25,727 bases of DNA. It comes from a virus. Location of the stretch: the IMG/VR virus record IMGVR_UViG_3300034198_015548, positions 1-25,727 of that record. One strand, given 5' to 3'. A program made the position numbers and the translations under genes. Positions within the stretch are counted from its first letter, which is position 1. Every line of letters starts with the position of its first letter. Of the stretch, positions 4,507-12,750 are shown piece by piece. Under the pieces are notes generated by a model. The model had not been told where the DNA came from. It searched no databases and saw nothing but the letters and a program-made list of their open reading frames with translations.

Positions 4507-4833
4507 TTGAGCCTTAACGCATTTGGCCCGCGAAGCCTGAATTTCAACATTGCTGCAACGCAAACCCCATCGACAGCGATCCAGATTTCTGCCGATCCGT
4601 TGTGCGATGTTTATCAGTTCATCAATACCGGCACCGCAATTGCTTACATTGCAGTCGGCAATTCTAAAGACATTCAAGCTGCAATTGCCGCGCCGAACGT
4701 GCCGGCAAACGGAACGCCAATTCTGCCGAACGAGATTGTCCTGTATCGATTCGGGCCTAACTCTTGGATTTCCGCGATTTGCGATACGGGCAAGACAACA
4801 AACCTGTTCATAACCGTAGGCGAGGGAATGTAA
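4507..4833 (+). CDS. Small beta-rich virion-like protein
   Basis: A 108-residue protein read from TTG at 4507, one base after the terminase stop. The longer ATG frame (4456) overlaps the terminase end by 50 bases and is less likely, though neither start has a good ribosome site. The sequence is rich in Thr, Ala, Ile, Asn and Pro with alternating hydrophobic residues (such as Cys-Asp-Val-Tyr-Gln-Phe-Ile-Asn-Thr-Gly), as in small beta-sandwich decoration or head-fibre base proteins. No membrane segment or enzyme motif. It is followed at once by the fibre gene, so it may be its partner in the particle. Family not recognised. Confidence 0.6.
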   Translation: MSLNAFGPRSLNFNIAATQTPSTAIQISADPLCDVYQFINTGTAIAYIAVGNSKDIQAAIAAPNVPANGTPILPNEIVLYRFGPNSWISAICDTGKTTNLFITVGEGM

Positions 4834-4834
4834 C

Positions 4835-5917
4835 GTGGGTCTGAAAGCGGTAGGTTCTTCCAGCAGCGGATCAATTTCCCTGCCGGTCGCTGTTGGCGAC
4901 GGCGGAACAGGCGCAACATCTTTCACGGCAACCCGCCTGCTGATCGGAAACGGAACAAGTCCAATTACGACTGATGCAGGATTGACGTTTACTGGAGGCA
5001 CTCTTTATACCAGCGGTATCAGCAGCAAGCCCTTAACCGGCAACGGTAGCGGAGCGGGCAACGAAATATTCGGCGCTGGCGCAAATATCAACAGTAGTGT
5101 GCGAATCAACAACACACTGCTTGGGAACGGCGCGTATGTAAATGATACGGGAGCCTTTAGTGATGAAAACGTAATAATTGGATGCCTTGCTGGAATACAG
5201 GGTGCTCGTAGATCGGTCGCCATAGGAAAAAGCACTTTCTTAAATGCTTTATTTGGGGAAAACTGCATCCTTATTGGATACAATTCTTCCGCTAGCGGCA
5301 ACTTCATGACAATTGTTGGCGCTAACAACACTATTACAACCGGTCAAAATGCCACACTCTACGGACTAGGAAATACTTACAACTCTGCTAACGGTGCGAT
5401 AGGAATTTTTGGGAATTTCAACACCTATTCTGGCGCATCTCACAGGGGCGGCGGTCTTTTTGGAGTCGGCCTATATTCGCTTCGAGATCGTGAGTTGGGC
5501 ATAGGTCACTCGTATGGATTTGTTGGTGGCGGTTTCGGGCTTTCGTTCACCGGAGAAACTGGGGCGTATGTTCCCCGTGAGTTGGGCCGAACTGTTTTTG
5601 ATTGGGTTGATGCAACAGATGCAACGCGGAAGTCTAGGGTTATCAACTATGTTCGCGACAATACAACTGAACGTGAATATCTGCGCGCAGAATCAAACGG
5701 CACTGGCGCAGATGTTAATTTCAACGGTGCAAGTTATACCTTTGCAGTTCCAGTCAAATTTGCAGGTTACACAGTAGCAACACTTCCAGCAGGAACAGTA
5801 GGTATGCGAGCATATGTAACTGATGCGCTTGCCCCAGTGTTCCTCACAGCATTAGTTGGCGGCGGGGCAATTACGTGCCCAGCATTTTACAATGGCGCGG
5901 CTTGGGTCGCAGGATAG
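4835..5917 (+). CDS. Fibre or adhesin-like virion protein with YadA-type repeats
   Basis: A 360-residue protein from GTG at 4835, behind GAGGGA (4823-4828). The N-terminal part carries Gly-Asp-Gly-Gly-Thr-Gly-Ala (about 22-28), a motif common in phage tail fibres. Residues about 65-205 are Gly/Asn/Ala/Ile-rich short repeats (for example Ser-Val-Ala-Ile-Gly-Lys-Ser, Cys-Ile-Leu-Ile-Gly-Tyr-Asn), resembling the left-handed beta-roll of trimeric autotransporter heads. The last 50 residues (Ala-Thr-Leu-Pro-Ala-Gly-Thr-Val-Gly to Trp-Val-Ala-Gly) form a compact tip seen in many fibre-like phage proteins. It probably forms a trimer exposed on the virion. Its place between terminase and portal, away from the other fibre gene, is unusual. 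No C-type lectin fold or diversity-generating element is seen. Confidence 0.75.
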   Translation: MGLKAVGSSSSGSISLPVAVGDGGTGATSFTATRLLIGNGTSPITTDAGLTFTGGTLYTSGISSKPLTGNGSGAGNEIFGAGANINSSVRINNTLLGNGAYVNDTGAFSDENVIIGCLAGIQGARRSVAIGKSTFLNALFGENCILIGYNSSASGNFMTIVGANNTITTGQNATLYGLGNTYNSANGAIGIFGNFNTYSGASHRGGGLFGVGLYSLRDRELGIGHSYGFVGGGFGLSFTGETGAYVPRELGRTVFDWVDATDATRKSRVINYVRDNTTEREYLRAESNGTGADVNFNGASYTFAVPVKFAGYTVATLPAGTVGMRAYVTDALAPVFLTALVGGGAITCPAFYNGAAWVAG

Positions 5918-7253: not shown

Positions 7254-8903
7254 ATGAACATACCCGAAAATTTAGTTGATAGAGAGCGTTTCTATCAGGA
7301 CTTGATCCAGAAGTGCACGGCATCGCAGGACGACAGGCGTGTTGATTACGGCCTGATGCGGCACTTTTATCTGTTCGGCAGATCGCCGGATGAAGCGGAA
7401 ACGCCTTACAACAAGATTTTCCCGCACATCGACATGCTGACAGCGTTCCTGTTTGCCTCCGAGACAACGCGGTTTTCAACGCACTTCGGCCCGCATGTTT
7501 CAGAGCACGAGTACGAGCGAATAATCCCTATCAACAGGGCAATCAATGACCAATGGCTAATCAGCAACGCGGATCAGACGTTCGGGCAGGGGCTTACGTG
7601 GTCGCTTGTCTACAATACAATGATTTTCAAGATCATCGTTCGCGCCAATGACAAAGGATTGAAAAGTATTGATCCGTTCATCATTGACCCCGGCTCATTT
7701 GGCGTTCTGCGCGAGGATATTCCCTACCTCGACCGTCAGGAGGCAATGGTACATACGTTTTATACAACGAAATCGCAGCTTGAAATAGACTTGGAGAATC
7801 ACCCGCAAAAGGCGTCAATTCTGGCGCGGCTGGACGCTTTCCCGCGCACGGACAAGGAGGCTATGCCTTCCGGTGTTGATCGCATCATCCTGTCTGCCTC
7901 AACGCCAACGATGCAAGGTAACGCGCAGGTGCCTCTTAACGGCAACATGGATTACGCGCCGAAAGTTTCGGAAGATTTGGTTGAAATGCAAGAGTTGTGG
8001 TTGTGGGATACCAAAGTTGACGACTACAGGGTAGTCACCCGCGCCAGCAACGATATAACGATTTACGACCGGCCCAACTTTTTTATTAAGGGCGAAATTC
8101 CTTTTGTTCAGATTTGCCCCAACCCGATGTATTCCTACTTTTGGGGAATGTCCGAAGTCAACGGACTTATCGGGCTTCAGAAGTGGCGCAACGAAAGGAC
8201 TTTGCAGGTAAAGAATTTGCTGGACAAACAGGTTGACCCGCCAACATCCCTAACCGGATGGATGGGGCTTATTGACGAAAAGAATTTTGCGCTCAACATG
8301 CCGGGCGGTGTTCTTTCCACTGATTCAATGCAGGCAAAAGTGGATCGCCACAAGCCGGATATTCCGAACGATATTTTTGCCGTTATTCACGAAATAGATT
8401 CCATGTTCTCCGAGCGCAGCGGTTTGCAGAACATCATGATGGGGAAAGGCGAATCGGGCGTCAGGTCAGGCCGGCAGACTTCGGAGTTGGCAAGGCTTGC
8501 CAGCGCAAGGATCAAGAAACGCGCTCTTGTGGTAGAGGATGCGCTTGAGAAAGTGGCAACGCTTTATCTGAAGGTCATGCGTAAGCACGACACGAACGAC
8601 ATGAAAGATTCGGAAGGCAGGCCGTTTATTCCGGCGCAGTTTGCAGACGACTTTGTTGTGAAGGTTGACTCGCACAGCAATAGCCCGCTGTTTGTCGAAG
8701 ATCATAAACAGCTTGCACTTGAACTGTTGCAGGCCCACGCAATAGATCGAAACTCGTTTATCGATATGCTTGATCCGCCCATGAAAGACTTGTTGTTGCG
8801 GAAATTGAAGGTCATCGAAAAGAAAGAAGCCGAGGCAAAACAGCAGGAAATGGCAATGCAAGCAAAAAAAGAAGGCGCAGACTTGCAATCTGAAAAAAAG
8901 TAG
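7254..8903 (+). CDS. Portal protein (podovirus type)
   Basis: A 549-residue protein, typical for short-tailed phage portals, which form the dodecameric ring through which DNA enters and leaves the head. Features include an N-terminal helical wing, the segment Pro-Ile-Asn-Arg-Ala-Ile-Asn-Asp-Gln-Trp (about 92-101), and a helical stem and crown around residues 389-445 (Arg-Ser-Gly-Leu-Gln-Asn-Ile-Met-Met-Gly, then Arg-Gln-Thr-Ser-Glu-Leu-Ala-Arg-Leu-Ala-Ser-Ala-Arg-Ile). The last 30 residues form a Lys/Glu/Gln-rich coiled coil that may act as a barrel. Position after terminase and before scaffold and capsid supports the call. No truncation is seen. Confidence 0.88.
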   Translation: MNIPENLVDRERFYQDLIQKCTASQDDRRVDYGLMRHFYLFGRSPDEAETPYNKIFPHIDMLTAFLFASETTRFSTHFGPHVSEHEYERIIPINRAINDQWLISNADQTFGQGLTWSLVYNTMIFKIIVRANDKGLKSIDPFIIDPGSFGVLREDIPYLDRQEAMVHTFYTTKSQLEIDLENHPQKASILARLDAFPRTDKEAMPSGVDRIILSASTPTMQGNAQVPLNGNMDYAPKVSEDLVEMQELWLWDTKVDDYRVVTRASNDITIYDRPNFFIKGEIPFVQICPNPMYSYFWGMSEVNGLIGLQKWRNERTLQVKNLLDKQVDPPTSLTGWMGLIDEKNFALNMPGGVLSTDSMQAKVDRHKPDIPNDIFAVIHEIDSMFSERSGLQNIMMGKGESGVRSGRQTSELARLASARIKKRALVVEDALEKVATLYLKVMRKHDTNDMKDSEGRPFIPAQFADDFVVKVDSHSNSPLFVEDHKQLALELLQAHAIDRNSFIDMLDPPMKDLLLRKLKVIEKKEAEAKQQEMAMQAKKEGADLQSEKK

Positions 8904-8972
8904 AGTAAATGCTTACTTCAGGGTATGGCTGCGTTCCCTTTAAAACGTGGCCGCTTCGTAAAGGAGATCGAC

Positions 8973-9017
8973 ATGGCCCGCCGTGCTCGTCGCGCTAAAC
9001 GCGCTTCCAAGAAGTAA
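8973..9017 (+). CDS. Micro-ORF 1: 14-residue Arg/Lys peptide
   Basis: Reads MARRARRAKRASKK then TAA: eight of 14 residues are Arg or Lys and none is acidic. The ATG follows AAGGAG (8961-8966) by six bases, one of the best ribosome sites in the window. It lies 69 bases after the portal gene and shares an RAKR core and charge with a second micro-ORF 78 bases downstream. Very small basic proteins that bind packaged DNA are known in microviruses (protein J). A comparable DNA-neutralising role, or a regulatory leader peptide role, is inference. Too short for standard gene callers. Confidence 0.6.
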   Translation: MARRARRAKRASKK

Positions 9018-9058
9018 TAAACTGGATTCTTCCGGTTTAGGGGTGTCCGTCACGCCCC
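9018..9058 (+). promoter_or_regulatory. Two adjacent hairpins after micro-ORF 1
   Basis: The first stem pairs TAAACTGG (9018-9025) with CCGGTTTA (9032-9039), with one GU pair and a six-base loop. The second starts at the next base: GGGGTGT (9040-9046) with ACGCCCC (9052-9058), with one GU pair and the loop CCGTC. The second displays TGTCCGTCA (9044-9052) across loop and stem. No T-run follows, so these are not classic terminators. They may stabilise the transcript or control translation. Confidence 0.6.
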
Positions 9059-9094
9059 GCTGCTCATCCCCCAAATGCCAACTAGGAGATTGAC

Positions 9095-9136
9095 ATGCGT
9101 AAATCGTACCGCGCCAAACGTAAAACCCGCCGGTAA
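9095..9136 (+). CDS. Micro-ORF 2: 13-residue Arg/Lys peptide
   Basis: Reads MRKSYRAKRKTRR then TAA: eight basic residues of 13 and none acidic. The ATG follows AGGAG (9084-9088) by six bases. The YRAKRKTRR half matches micro-ORF 1 (RRAKRASKK) in spacing, which suggests an ancient tandem duplication. A hairpin with the same TGTCCGTCA element as that after micro-ORF 1 follows (9143-9166). The repeated plan of ribosome site, basic peptide, stop and hairpin argues against chance. Function is unknown: a DNA-binding virion micro-protein or a leader peptide are both possible. Confidence 0.6.
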   Translation: MRKSYRAKRKTRR

Positions 9137-9142
9137 ATCGGC

Positions 9143-9166
9143 ATTGGATGTCCGTCAGCATCCAAT
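9143..9166 (+). promoter_or_regulatory. Hairpin after micro-ORF 2
   Basis: A perfect 8-bp stem ATTGGATG (9143-9150) with CATCCAAT (9159-9166) encloses the loop TCCGTCAG. The 9-mer TGTCCGTCA (9149-9157) is shared with the hairpin at 9040-9058. It is followed by AAAAATTT rather than a T-run, so a terminator role is doubtful. Confidence 0.6.
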
Positions 9167-9172
9167 AAAAAT

Positions 9173-9201
9173 TTGACTTTATTGAAAAACGAGTTTTTAA
9201 T
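9173..9201 (+). promoter_or_regulatory. Sigma70-type promoter ahead of the first virion gene
   Basis: TTGACT (9173-9178) and TTTAAT (9196-9201) each match the consensus in five of six bases and are 17 bases apart in an AT-rich stretch. The expected start is near 9208, giving a leader of about 40 bases before the ATG at 9249. It would drive strong transcription of the capsid region using host polymerase. Confidence 0.6.
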
Positions 9202-9248: not shown

Positions 9249-9878
9249 ATGCCATTAGGTTATACAGTCCTGCGTCAAAAGGTCGGCAACCAGACAGAAG
9301 ATAACTTCGTCGCCGGCATCGCTCCTAACGGGCAAATCAACAATTTCAGCGGTCGCCTGACAGTTCCTAGTATTCCGATTGGCGGCGTCGCTTACGGCTC
9401 TCTCGGCACGAATACGACCGACGTTAGCGGCCAGCTTTGGATCACTGATCTTTTCCTGCCGTACAACCGCGTGGTTTCAACGATTGGCGTTCTGGCTGGC
9501 GGCACCGCCACTACGGACAACTGGCTTGCGGCGATTTACGACTCTTACGGGGTTTTGATTGCATCAACCGCCGTTGCCGGAAAAACGCTGTCAGGCGCAA
9601 ACACTTTCCAGACTCAAGCGATTGCGTTGACGTATGCTCGTGGCACTACAACGGGCGCAACGGCGGCAACCAGCGTTCAGCTTTTCGGGCCGCAGCAGTA
9701 TTTTGTTGTGGTTCAAGGCAACGGTACCGCAGCCGGCGCTTTCCGCACCGTGGCTACCGCAACCTATATCGACGTTATTGCAACTTCCGTTTCAGGCACT
9801 TTCGGCACCGTTCCGGCAACCATCACGGTTCCGACGACGTTCACCGCCGATAAAGCGCCGATTGTTTACCTGCAATAA
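9249..9878 (+). CDS. Beta-rich virion protein
   Basis: A 209-residue protein with ribosome site GGAG (9238-9241). It is rich in Thr, Ala, Gly, Val and Ile with few charges, typical of beta-sandwich virion surface proteins. Hydrophobic strands alternate with Gly/Thr loops (for example Gly-Gly-Thr-Ala-Thr-Thr-Asp-Asn-Trp, about 85-93). It lies behind the clearest promoter in the window and ahead of a second protein of like composition, so both are probably abundant. A decoration or head-fibre role is likely; the family is not recognised. Confidence 0.65.
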   Translation: MPLGYTVLRQKVGNQTEDNFVAGIAPNGQINNFSGRLTVPSIPIGGVAYGSLGTNTTDVSGQLWITDLFLPYNRVVSTIGVLAGGTATTDNWLAAIYDSYGVLIASTAVAGKTLSGANTFQTQAIALTYARGTTTGATAATSVQLFGPQQYFVVVQGNGTAAGAFRTVATATYIDVIATSVSGTFGTVPATITVPTTFTADKAPIVYLQ

Positions 9879-9887
9879 GGCTTTGGA

Positions 9888-10484
9888 ATGGCTCAAGACA
9901 TAGGAAACGCCTTACAAGTGTCGCTAGGCTCTAGCCTGCCGACCTATAAGGCCGTCCTATTTGACGTTGTTCCGTACACTTCGGCAACGGATATTGTCAA
10001 TATCAGCCTTCCGTCAACCGCTACAGTTGCGCTGAAAGTGACTCGCTGTTACGTGTCCTACAGCGCAACGGCGGCAGTTACGTCAGACGCATACCTGATC
10101 CGGCGCACAACCGCAAATACCGGCGGTACTCCGACAGCTTTAACAACGGTTCAAGCCTCCTTTTTGTCGGGATTTGCTGTGGTAACGCAATCCGATACGA
10201 GCGATGCGGCAACGGCGGCAACGGTTGTCGGTTATACGGTAGCGCCTACGCTTGGCACACCGCAAATTATCGACGGCGCACACATCACGATTCCGGCTGC
10301 GGCAACACCGACTGTTCCGGTGACGTTTTTTGAAGTGACGTTTGCGAATCGCGGTAGCAAGCCGCCGATTATTCGACCCGGACAATCTGTTTCGCTGTCT
10401 TTTGGCGGAAACGCGGTTCCCGCTGGCGCGTCGGTCTACGCTTCTATTGAGTGGGTTGAAGTTCCCCTCGCTTCGCTATTCTAG
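9888..10484 (+). CDS. Beta-rich virion protein, companion of the preceding gene
   Basis: A 198-residue Thr/Ala/Val/Pro-rich protein starting nine bases after its neighbour. It has the same character: short beta strands, few charges, Gly/Thr loops, and a C-terminal part ending Glu-Trp-Val-Glu-Val-Pro-Leu-Ala-Ser-Leu-Phe. Residues about 160-180 (Pro-Pro-Ile-Ile-Arg-Pro-Gly-Gln-Ser-Val-Ser-Leu) read like the edge of a jelly-roll or Ig-like sandwich. The ATG has no strong ribosome site, so translation may be coupled to the gene before. Probable minor or decoration protein of the head; no family recognised. Confidence 0.6.
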   Translation: MAQDIGNALQVSLGSSLPTYKAVLFDVVPYTSATDIVNISLPSTATVALKVTRCYVSYSATAAVTSDAYLIRRTTANTGGTPTALTTVQASFLSGFAVVTQSDTSDAATAATVVGYTVAPTLGTPQIIDGAHITIPAAATPTVPVTFFEVTFANRGSKPPIIRPGQSVSLSFGGNAVPAGASVYASIEWVEVPLASLF

Positions 10485-10493
10485 GAAAAAACG

Positions 10494-10943
10494 ATGCCCG
10501 CTATCGACCCCAAACTTGCCGCCCTGATGGGTAAATCCGGCCCCGCTACCCCCCCTCCGGTGGGGCCGGATGCAAGTCCTGCGGGTGGCGCTGGATCGCC
10601 GCCAACATCTTCGCCCATGTCTGCCCCGCAACCTAATGCTGGCGAAAAACAGCAGGCGATGATTAAGGTTCAGCAGGCAATGGATTTGCTGGAACAGGCA
10701 TTGCCTGATTTTGGCAGCGAATCAGAAGAAGGCGGCGAGATTATTAAAACGCTTGGCGCTTTGGGTAAAAAGTTTGGTGGCGCGAATCGTGCCAGAAGTA
10801 ACGAATTGATGCCGGCAGAATTGATGAATTTGCTGTCAAGCCTCCCGCAAGGGCCGAATGGGATGAAACCCATGCCGGCAGGCGGCGGCGCACCGATGCC
10901 GCCCGCTGGCGGCGCTGCACCACCAATGCCCCCGATGGGCTAA
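10494..10943 (+). CDS. Pro/Gly/Met-rich protein with central helical segment
   Basis: A 149-residue protein in three parts: a Pro/Ala/Gly/Ser-rich start (1-50), a helical middle (about 51-125: Lys-Gln-Gln-Ala-Met-Ile-Lys-Val-Gln-Gln-Ala-Met-Asp-Leu-Leu-Glu), and a Pro/Gly/Met-rich tail made of short PMPxGG-like repeats. Flexible, low-complexity proteins of this kind near scaffold genes are often scaffold cofactors or minor head proteins. GAAAAAACG precedes the ATG. The function cannot be read from sequence. Confidence 0.6.
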   Translation: MPAIDPKLAALMGKSGPATPPPVGPDASPAGGAGSPPTSSPMSAPQPNAGEKQQAMIKVQQAMDLLEQALPDFGSESEEGGEIIKTLGALGKKFGGANRARSNELMPAELMNLLSSLPQGPNGMKPMPAGGGAPMPPAGGAAPPMPPMG

Positions 10944-11742: not shown

Positions 11743-12750
11743 ATGAGCGTACTAGGTACCGGAATTATTCCGTCTGGCAGCATCGCCTCCGAACTGACGG
11801 CAGTAACCCGCCGTGCGTTCATCCCGAAACTCGTTGTTCAGTTGTACAATTCAACGCCTCTGTTGGCCGCGCTGATCGCAAATTCGCAAACCGCTTCTGG
11901 CGGCGTGTCGAGCGTGTCTGTGCCGGTGCAGGGCGCTCAATTTGTCAACGGTCAATGGTCTGACTATAGCGGCTCGTTCGCGCAGCCCGCTGTTCAGCAA
12001 GGTGCGTTCCTTGCCGAATTTAACCTGAAACTGTTTATCACGCCGATTCCGTTCCTCGGCATGGAAGGCGCAGTTCAGCTTGATTACGCGGTTATCCCGC
12101 TGATTGAGGCCCGCATGAACGACGCCACAAACGTGACTTGCGATGTGATGGCGACCGCGCTCTACAACAATACGTCGAACCAACAGGCGTTTATTGGACT
12201 TCCCGGCGCGATTGACGACGGCACCAATCTGGCGACCTACGGCAACATCAACCGGACAACCAGCACTTATTGGAAATCGAAAGTTTACGCTGCCGGTAGC
12301 GTAAACCCGACCCGCCAAAACGTGCTGCAATACATTTCCGGCACCGTGAAAAACGGCGCAGAAGTGCCGACCTTTGGCGTTTGCGGCTTCGGCACTTGGA
12401 CGCTGTTGGCGCAAGATTTTGTCGGTCAGGAAACCTACATGATTACGCCGGATAAGGCGTTTGACAGCAATCCGGACGGCCCGCGCAGCGCGTTCCGTGC
12501 GCTGATGGTTGCCGGTGTGCCGATCTTTGCTGATCCGTATTGTCCAGAGGGCACGATGTATCTGGTAAACAGCAACTATGCTTCGCTCTACTTCCATGAG
12601 CAAGCCTCTTTTGCGTTTACCGGCTTTGAGTCAACGCTGTCAAATTGGCAGCTTGGCTATGTCGGGGCACTGGTAAATATTGCCGAATTGGTTGTCACCA
12701 AGCCGAAGGCAATGACCCGTATTGGTGGTTACAACAGCATTACGCTGTAA
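11743..12750 (+). CDS. Major capsid protein
   Basis: A 335-residue protein, right size for an HK97-fold coat protein, immediately after the scaffold with ribosome site AGGAG (11732-11736). The sequence has the expected alternation: an N-terminal arm, an extended Gly/Ser/Val segment (about 50-80), a long spine helix region (about 110-140: Val-Ile-Pro-Leu-Ile-Glu-Ala-Arg-Met-Asn-Asp-Ala), a Gly-Leu-Pro-Gly-Ala-Ile-Asp-Asp segment (about 151-158), and a C-terminal axial-domain stretch Gly-Val-Pro-Ile-Phe-Ala-Asp-Pro-Tyr (about 258-266). Codon use is GC-rich and regular, as in highly expressed genes. No frameshift or protease gene is seen; maturation is probably non-proteolytic, with the scaffold leaving intact. 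Confidence 0.88.
   Translation: MSVLGTGIIPSGSIASELTAVTRRAFIPKLVVQLYNSTPLLAALIANSQTASGGVSSVSVPVQGAQFVNGQWSDYSGSFAQPAVQQGAFLAEFNLKLFITPIPFLGMEGAVQLDYAVIPLIEARMNDATNVTCDVMATALYNNTSNQQAFIGLPGAIDDGTNLATYGNINRTTSTYWKSKVYAAGSVNPTRQNVLQYISGTVKNGAEVPTFGVCGFGTWTLLAQDFVGQETYMITPDKAFDSNPDGPRSAFRALMVAGVPIFADPYCPEGTMYLVNSNYASLYFHEQASFAFTGFESTLSNWQLGYVGALVNIAELVVTKPKAMTRIGGYNSITL

Follow-up and report, generated by a model that had tools for sequence, protein, structure and literature searches.

Protein J of the Microviridae (phiX174 and its relatives) is a very small, basic protein that is encoded next to the capsid genes and packaged with the genome. It is 24–40 aa long, and its hydrophobic C-terminal part docks on the coat. 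In adenovirus, a dsDNA virus, the arginine-rich peptide mu (X) of 19 aa binds DNA and is present at 100–300 copies per virion (PMC7998265). On the side of the messenger RNA, gene 32 of phages T4 and RB69, which encodes a nucleic-acid-binding protein, has an H-type pseudoknot 5′ of its ribosome site, followed in the operator by more than 40 nt of unstructured UUAAA-rich RNA, and T4 gp32 represses its own translation (PMC535899).

We analysed a stretch of 25,727 nt of viral DNA (IMG/VR record IMGVR_UViG_3300034198_015548, hereafter the window), in which two micro-genes, B and A, follow the portal gene and an H-type pseudoknot, PK1, precedes B. Like Microviridae J, the peptides are small, strongly basic and encoded in the head gene cluster. 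Unlike J, they are 10–15 aa long, a C-terminal hydrophobic or aromatic segment was sought in them and not found, and they belong to a tailed dsDNA phage with two peptide families and a pseudoknot leader. The likeness to adenovirus mu is that of short arginine-rich peptides of a dsDNA virus, DNA binding being presumed in our case. However, mu is cut by the viral protease from a 79-aa precursor, whereas the genes of 10–15 codons described here are translated directly; instead of proteolytic release, we found free-standing ORFs with their own Shine-Dalgarno (SD) site, start and stop in all 205 of the listed matches of the peptide scan reported below. PK1 resembles the gene 32 leader in being an H-type pseudoknot 5′ of the ribosome site, but it lies about 20 nt from the ATG (counted from its second stem, S2), has no region of UUAAA repeats longer than 40 nt, and differs in sequence and loops; moreover, gp32 is a large protein, unlike the product of B. 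In Rfam 15, no family reached its gathering threshold in the window or in eight relatives. The weak match to RF03012 (Mu-gpT-DE RNA; 15.3 bits against a gathering value of 49, E 0.69) runs through AGGAGAU..ACAUG and leaves the stem unmatched, and is a chance match because sub-threshold matches occurred in 13 of 14 control genomes; the matches of rox2 and snR36 to the window were likewise rejected as chance. An attenuation leader has no promoter between itself and the genes that it regulates, and here a TTGAC[AT] element intervenes. As J, mu and the gene 32 leader each fail at least one of the defining features tested, we have filed the finding under none of them. No earlier description of the peptides or the RNA was found in the literature searched, which covered part of the literature.

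Two micro-genes behind the portal gene

The portal stop lies at 8903 and the next ORF, of 209 aa, starts at 9249, leaving a gap of 345 nt (Table 1). In both micro-genes GGAG ends 6 nt before the ATG, and their peptides share the motif RAKR; in these details, as in the ribosome sites and the eight basic residues of each peptide, the original prediction was correct. Its statement that the two ORFs sit alone in the gap was not, since the pseudoknot at 8920–8952, hairpins and a promoter-like site are also found there. Throughout the window, B and A are the sole ORFs that combine an SD site, a length of 8–20 aa and at least 45% K+R, and outside the gap the same scan of 537 kb of related loci gave none on the coding strand and two on the other.

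Table 1. Positions in the window of the micro-genes and of the features around them
Feature	Position	Strand	Description and basis
Portal gene	7254..8903	+	SU10-like portal; fixed upstream neighbour
PK1	8920..8952	+	H-type RNA pseudoknot; covariation, descriptor and covariance-model scans
PK1 stem S1	8920-8923 / 8936-8939	+	AGGG / CCCU
PK1 loop 1	8924-8926	+	UAU
PK1 stem S2	8927-8935 / 8944-8952	+	GGCUGCGUU / AACGUGGCC
Shine-Dalgarno of B	8960..8966	+	AAAGGAG; read from sequence
Micro-gene B (ORF 1)	8973..9017	+	14-aa peptide MARRARRAKRASKK; ATG..TAA; 8 basic residues; RKxRKxRKxRK type
Hairpin after gene B	9019..9038	+	Folding only
Second hairpin after gene B	9040..9058	+	Folding; an intrinsic terminator with a T run can be read here in L007
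Shine-Dalgarno of A	9084..9088	+	AGGAG; read from sequence
Micro-gene A (ORF 2)	9095..9136	+	13-aa peptide MRKSYRAKRKTRR; 8 basic residues; KRxRKTRR type
Hairpin after gene A	9143..9166	+	Folding only
Promoter-like site, for downstream virion operon	9173..9201	+	TTGACT-17-TTTAAT; -35 conserved; -10 by eye, below threshold of promoter scan

Family A, whose type (..KRxRKTRR) occurs in most relatives, includes MYKAHKRGRKTRR, MHRYGKKGRKTRR and MDKKMKRGRKCRR; family B includes MRKARKGRKSRK, MARKARKHKRK and MRKGRKGRKSRK. The charge pattern is kept while the other residues drift. The peptides carry a net charge of about +7 to +8, no acidic residue occurs in the A or B variants tabulated, and hydrophobic residues are rare: ILVFW and aromatic residues number one and two across 31 B peptides, and ILVFW four across 47 A peptides. 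Among pairs showing four differences or fewer, pN/pS is 0.075 for A and 0.057 for B, and codon position 3 holds 62 of the 75 differences in A and 38 of the 45 in B. Synonymous change dominates, and both peptides are under purifying selection; the comparison of synonymous with non-synonymous change, which had been proposed as a check, thus bore out selection (about 0.06–0.08 in close pairs). All 37 distinct B genes start with ATG and end with TAA, and 134 of their 139 Arg codons are CGT or CGC, against 62% in the portal genes, A being intermediate. Such constancy of start and stop and such codon preference are typical of highly expressed genes. We regard it as near certain that B and A are genuine protein-coding genes. 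A tandem duplication, suggested from the repeated layout, is not supported: within a genome, A resembles B less (0.38) than A resembles A (0.53) or B resembles B (0.54) across genomes, which argues against a recent event, and genomes differ both in gene order (A-B or B-A) and in copy number, some having one or three copies, with B before A in the clade of the window and A before B elsewhere.

How widely are these genes distributed? We gathered relatives by portal sequence alone, and therefore free of motif bias; the samples, all metagenomic, are counted among the loci listed. At least one micro-ORF was present within 900 nt of the portal stop in all 68 of the nearest distinct loci with enough downstream sequence, and at least two in 50 of these 68, while the reverse complement of the same region gave micro-ORFs in none. 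A looser scan from three portal seeds found them in 133 of 175 distinct loci listed, a few of the 133 being chance-like ORFs (the reverse-complement control gave 5 of 175). The remaining 42 loci form two subclades, L176-like and L173-like; some members of the latter have a basic ORF of 20–25 aa, such as MYGKKPMKSPMKPMKKGPMREQKRK, at the place of A, and others have none. The count of 68 in 68 is therefore an effect of sampling near the window, and the micro-genes, which have been lost or replaced in places within the family, are not universally essential.

Independently of the portal, we scanned 2.9 million IMG/VR contigs with two degenerate B-type patterns plus a GGAG ribosome site. At least 205 distinct matches were obtained, and all those listed belong to this phage family: in 205 of 205, the ORF is 10–15 aa long and lies on the portal strand between the portal and the scaffold/capsid (MCP) genes. 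One family, one place and one length range exclude a compositional accident. Such micro-ORFs were not found in the more distant capsid relatives Mx8, TM7 phage and BUCT555. In size, the micro-genes come close to the smallest that a trans-acting gene can be, and they fall well below the cut-offs of gene callers. Even so, hundreds of phage contigs keep them at one fixed place, under strong purifying selection and with a structured RNA of their own. Position, a codon-pattern test and RNA covariation could together serve as a recipe for finding other genes this small.

That gene callers skip such ORFs, as had been supposed, is illustrated by two GenBank relatives, MW202825 (L016) and MW202753 (L017), in which the only annotations over the micro-genes are spurious antisense 'hypothetical protein' CDSs (7779–8039 minus in the former; 4740–4877 and 4874–5038 minus in the latter; coordinates are those of the locus). 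Long antisense frames stay open through Arg/Lys-rich codons. In the window, an antisense ORF of 73 aa (8940–9161) is disfavoured by the clustering of differences at the third codon position of the plus frames. Translation from the ATG at 8925, in frame with B, would lengthen the peptide to 30 aa, but this start was rejected as an artefact of PK1; in relatives, a stop closes the frame (L003, L007, L014) or the ATG has disappeared (L012, L010).

Structured RNA and promoter element around gene B

PK1, which the original prediction had missed and which is new in this analysis, has a loop 1 that is always UNU, an S2 of 7–9 pairs and a short, A/U-rich loop 3, and the sequence of S2 is kept beyond pairing (GGCUG../..GGCC). 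When 57 loci were aligned by sequence, the covariation score was 0.292 against 0.122 ± 0.009 in shuffles (0 of 500 reached it), 85% of cells were paired against 75%, 9 of 13 pairs showed changes on both sides, and slid controls all scored lower. Compensatory changes occur in both stems: AUGG/CCAU (L008), ACGG/CCGU (L097), GCAG/CUGC (L098), AGAG/CUCU (L102) and CCGG/CCGG (L172) in S1, and GGCUGAGUU/AACUUGGCC (L162), GGUUUCU/AGAAACC (L132) and GGCUGAUUU/AAAUUGGCC (L175) in S2. Mismatches in S2 comprise a U-C/U-U tandem in one subgroup and C-A in another. The S2 hairpin of the window folds at -12.7 kcal/mol.

The structure is coupled to gene B. Among the matches listed, PK1 lies in the 72 nt before the ATG of 176 of 185 B genes, where 4.0 would be expected from random pieces and 5.0 from shuffled leaders; the descriptor was written after examples had been seen, which these controls and the shuffled-column covariation offset only in part. 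The end of S2 is mostly 18–25 nt from the ATG. With a covariance model of S2, which scores 48 bits on the window, each genome yields a single copy, in every case before B, also in genomes outside model building; SU10, Mx8, BUCT555 and the TM7 phage yield none. PK1 was seen only together with B. The reverse does not hold: B occurs without PK1 in L101, L106, L330, L362 and L424, and L115-type loci have an A-type peptide only. Persistence of the peptide in loci without PK1 (L101, L106, L115) makes the peptide, not the RNA, the more basal feature. In L101 (2106–2304), and similarly in L330, L362 and L424, three basic micro-ORFs stand in a row, or B has a leader GGGGACGTTCACTCGTAC..AGGAGG in place of PK1.

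A second H-type pseudoknot, PK2, lies between the B stop and the next promoter in 100 of 192 B genes among the matches listed, against an expectation of 1.6 in shuffles and 2.6 in random pieces. It occurs with 14 S1 pairings (e.g., CATC/GATG, TGTC/GACA, AATTC/GAATT), 48 S2 pairings (e.g., GGCGGTT/AACCGCC, GGGAAGC/GCTTCCC) and an A-rich loop 3; the clade of the window has hairpins in its place. Rfam has no entry for either of these structured-RNA families, PK1 or PK2.

Behind the micro-genes, TTGAC[AT] occurs within 130 nt of the last micro-ORF in 107 of 127 loci (8.4 expected) and within 110 nt of B in 169 of 197 B genes among the matches listed. The -10 element is less regular (a loose pattern detects it in 58 of 127 loci, with 1.2 expected), few sites pass a strict 10/12 promoter scan (6 of 130 against 1.6), and the -10 of the window falls below the threshold of the consensus promoter/terminator scan; strong conservation is limited to the -35 element. 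From its position after the last micro-ORF, we deduce that the micro-genes end one transcription unit and that the scaffold/capsid operon begins anew behind them. In L108, L112, L130 and L134, an operator-like palindrome, TTTGTA-N-TACAAA, lies about 55–70 nt after B, just behind the TTGACA element.

Possible functions of the peptides

What might such peptides do? The reading that we tentatively prefer, while placing it somewhat short of an even chance, is that B and A are micro-genes of the morphogenesis module, whose structural neighbours are portal, scaffold-like and capsid genes, and that they supply abundant late polyanion-binding peptides from a stabilised mRNA cassette, acting in the head or on the packaged DNA. 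The message of B carries a pseudoknot just upstream of its ribosome site and, in many relatives, a second just after its stop; these folds might keep exonucleases off the short message and leave its ribosome site accessible, and if so one small message would yield many copies of a peptide of 10–15 residues with a charge of about +8. Late in infection, the peptides would bind polyanions, most likely phage DNA during or after packaging, or alternatively the scaffold or inner capsid surface, and might act like very small protamines. The reality of the genes, purifying selection on them, their fixed place, the optimal codons and TAA stop of B, and the pseudoknot with its coupling to B are observed; high expression, stabilisation of the mRNA, the binding partner and presence in the virion are what we infer. 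By our own estimate, a 35.9-kb genome has roughly 72,000 phosphates, of which about 415 copies (one per capsid subunit, with T=7 assumed) at +8 would neutralise only about 5%, and bulk neutralisation would need thousands of copies; either many copies enter, therefore, or the target is local (portal, scaffold or DNA ends). The lack of a hydrophobic capsid-docking tail, unlike in phiX174 J, speaks against this reading, and peptides this short allow no test of homology or fold. If they are in the virion, dsDNA tailed phages would own protamine-like peptides, which few studies look for and which trypsin-based proteomics often loses.

Binding to irregular RNA helices is common among arginine-rich peptides, and the main rival explanation is that peptide B binds PK1 in its own leader and stops its own translation when free peptide accumulates. 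The single copy of PK1 before B, the constant UNU loop, the S2 sequence kept beyond pairing and the tight spacing to the ATG would suit such a target, and gp32 offers a precedent (PMC535899); however, B persists in the five loci without PK1, its optimal codons point to a need for high output, A lacks a leader of this kind, and a stretch of only about 20 nt separates S2 from the ATG where the gp32 pseudoknot is followed by more than 40 unstructured nucleotides (PMC535899). We consider autoregulation unlikely, but it may coexist with DNA binding as the primary job of B. Slightly less probable is that the peptides help scaffolding or packaging by binding not the DNA but the portal, terminase, scaffold or inner capsid while the particle is assembled. 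The fixed place between the portal and scaffold-like/capsid genes in 205 of 205 matches listed, and the absence of the peptides outside this family among those matches, agree with such a role, but a charge pattern that is kept while other residues drift, and the missing hydrophobic or aromatic docking residues of B, do not. More doubtful again is a combined scheme in which peptide B would recognise the packaged genome as well as its own pseudoknot RNA, and late packaging of DNA would thereby feed back on synthesis from a 12-residue gene bracketed by two conserved H-type pseudoknots; if true, B would be one of the smallest self-regulating genes known.

Three further explanations seem improbable to us. 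The bracketing of B by two pseudoknots in about half of the relatives listed could mean that the functional product is chiefly RNA, a small structured PK1-B-PK2 molecule with a tiny ORF inside; yet the codon-position pattern and pN/pS indicate selection on the peptide, which is kept where PK1 is lost, and the clade of the window has no PK2. Still less likely are leader peptides, whose translation would control the downstream virion genes. This possibility, raised in the original prediction, draws on the very short ORFs, their strong ribosome sites and the hairpins behind them, but the promoter element of the downstream operon lies behind the micro-ORFs in the large majority of both sets counted above, so that the peptides close a transcript and do not open one; the best conserved RNA fold precedes B rather than follows it, and amino-acid conservation exceeds the need of stalling codons. 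Least probable of all are peptides that act on the host late in infection, for example on ribosomes, membranes or the nucleoid. Polycationic peptides can bind rRNA or DNA, and no known host excludes such action, but the strict linkage to the head module among the matches listed, and a composition without the hydrophobic part of typical antimicrobial peptides, speak against it.

The phage family and the surrounding genes

The family is a large one, made up of uncultured freshwater tailed phages. One contig, IMGVR_UViG_3300033061_000864 (35.9 kb, IMG/VR), has a portal gene 100% identical to that of the window and the same micro-ORFs. Among annotated phages, the portal search gave only the two uncultured GenBank relatives, and a capsid search added only distant ones. 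In 84,980 genomes, the capsid search found five contigs in unrelated bins (beta- and alphaproteobacteria, Balneolaceae, Saccharibacteria), a placement that is probably binning noise; these family contigs (L172–L176), in MAG bins of unrelated phyla, are probably contamination of GTDB species genomes.

Gene content around the micro-genes varies between clades. In the clade of the window, two extra virion-type ORFs (9249–10484) stand between the micro-genes and a scaffold-like gene (10494–10943), which in other clades directly follows the micro-genes. Most relatives (e.g., L102, L176, L180) have a conserved gene of 50–60 aa (..KADQPRVTTESL..YRVQ..R-rich C-terminus), absent in the window clade, that lies 0–180 nt after the portal stop and before micro-gene A. 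The capsid protein (11743–12750 in the window) is conserved at 71–96% across the family, far above the 50–80% of the portal.
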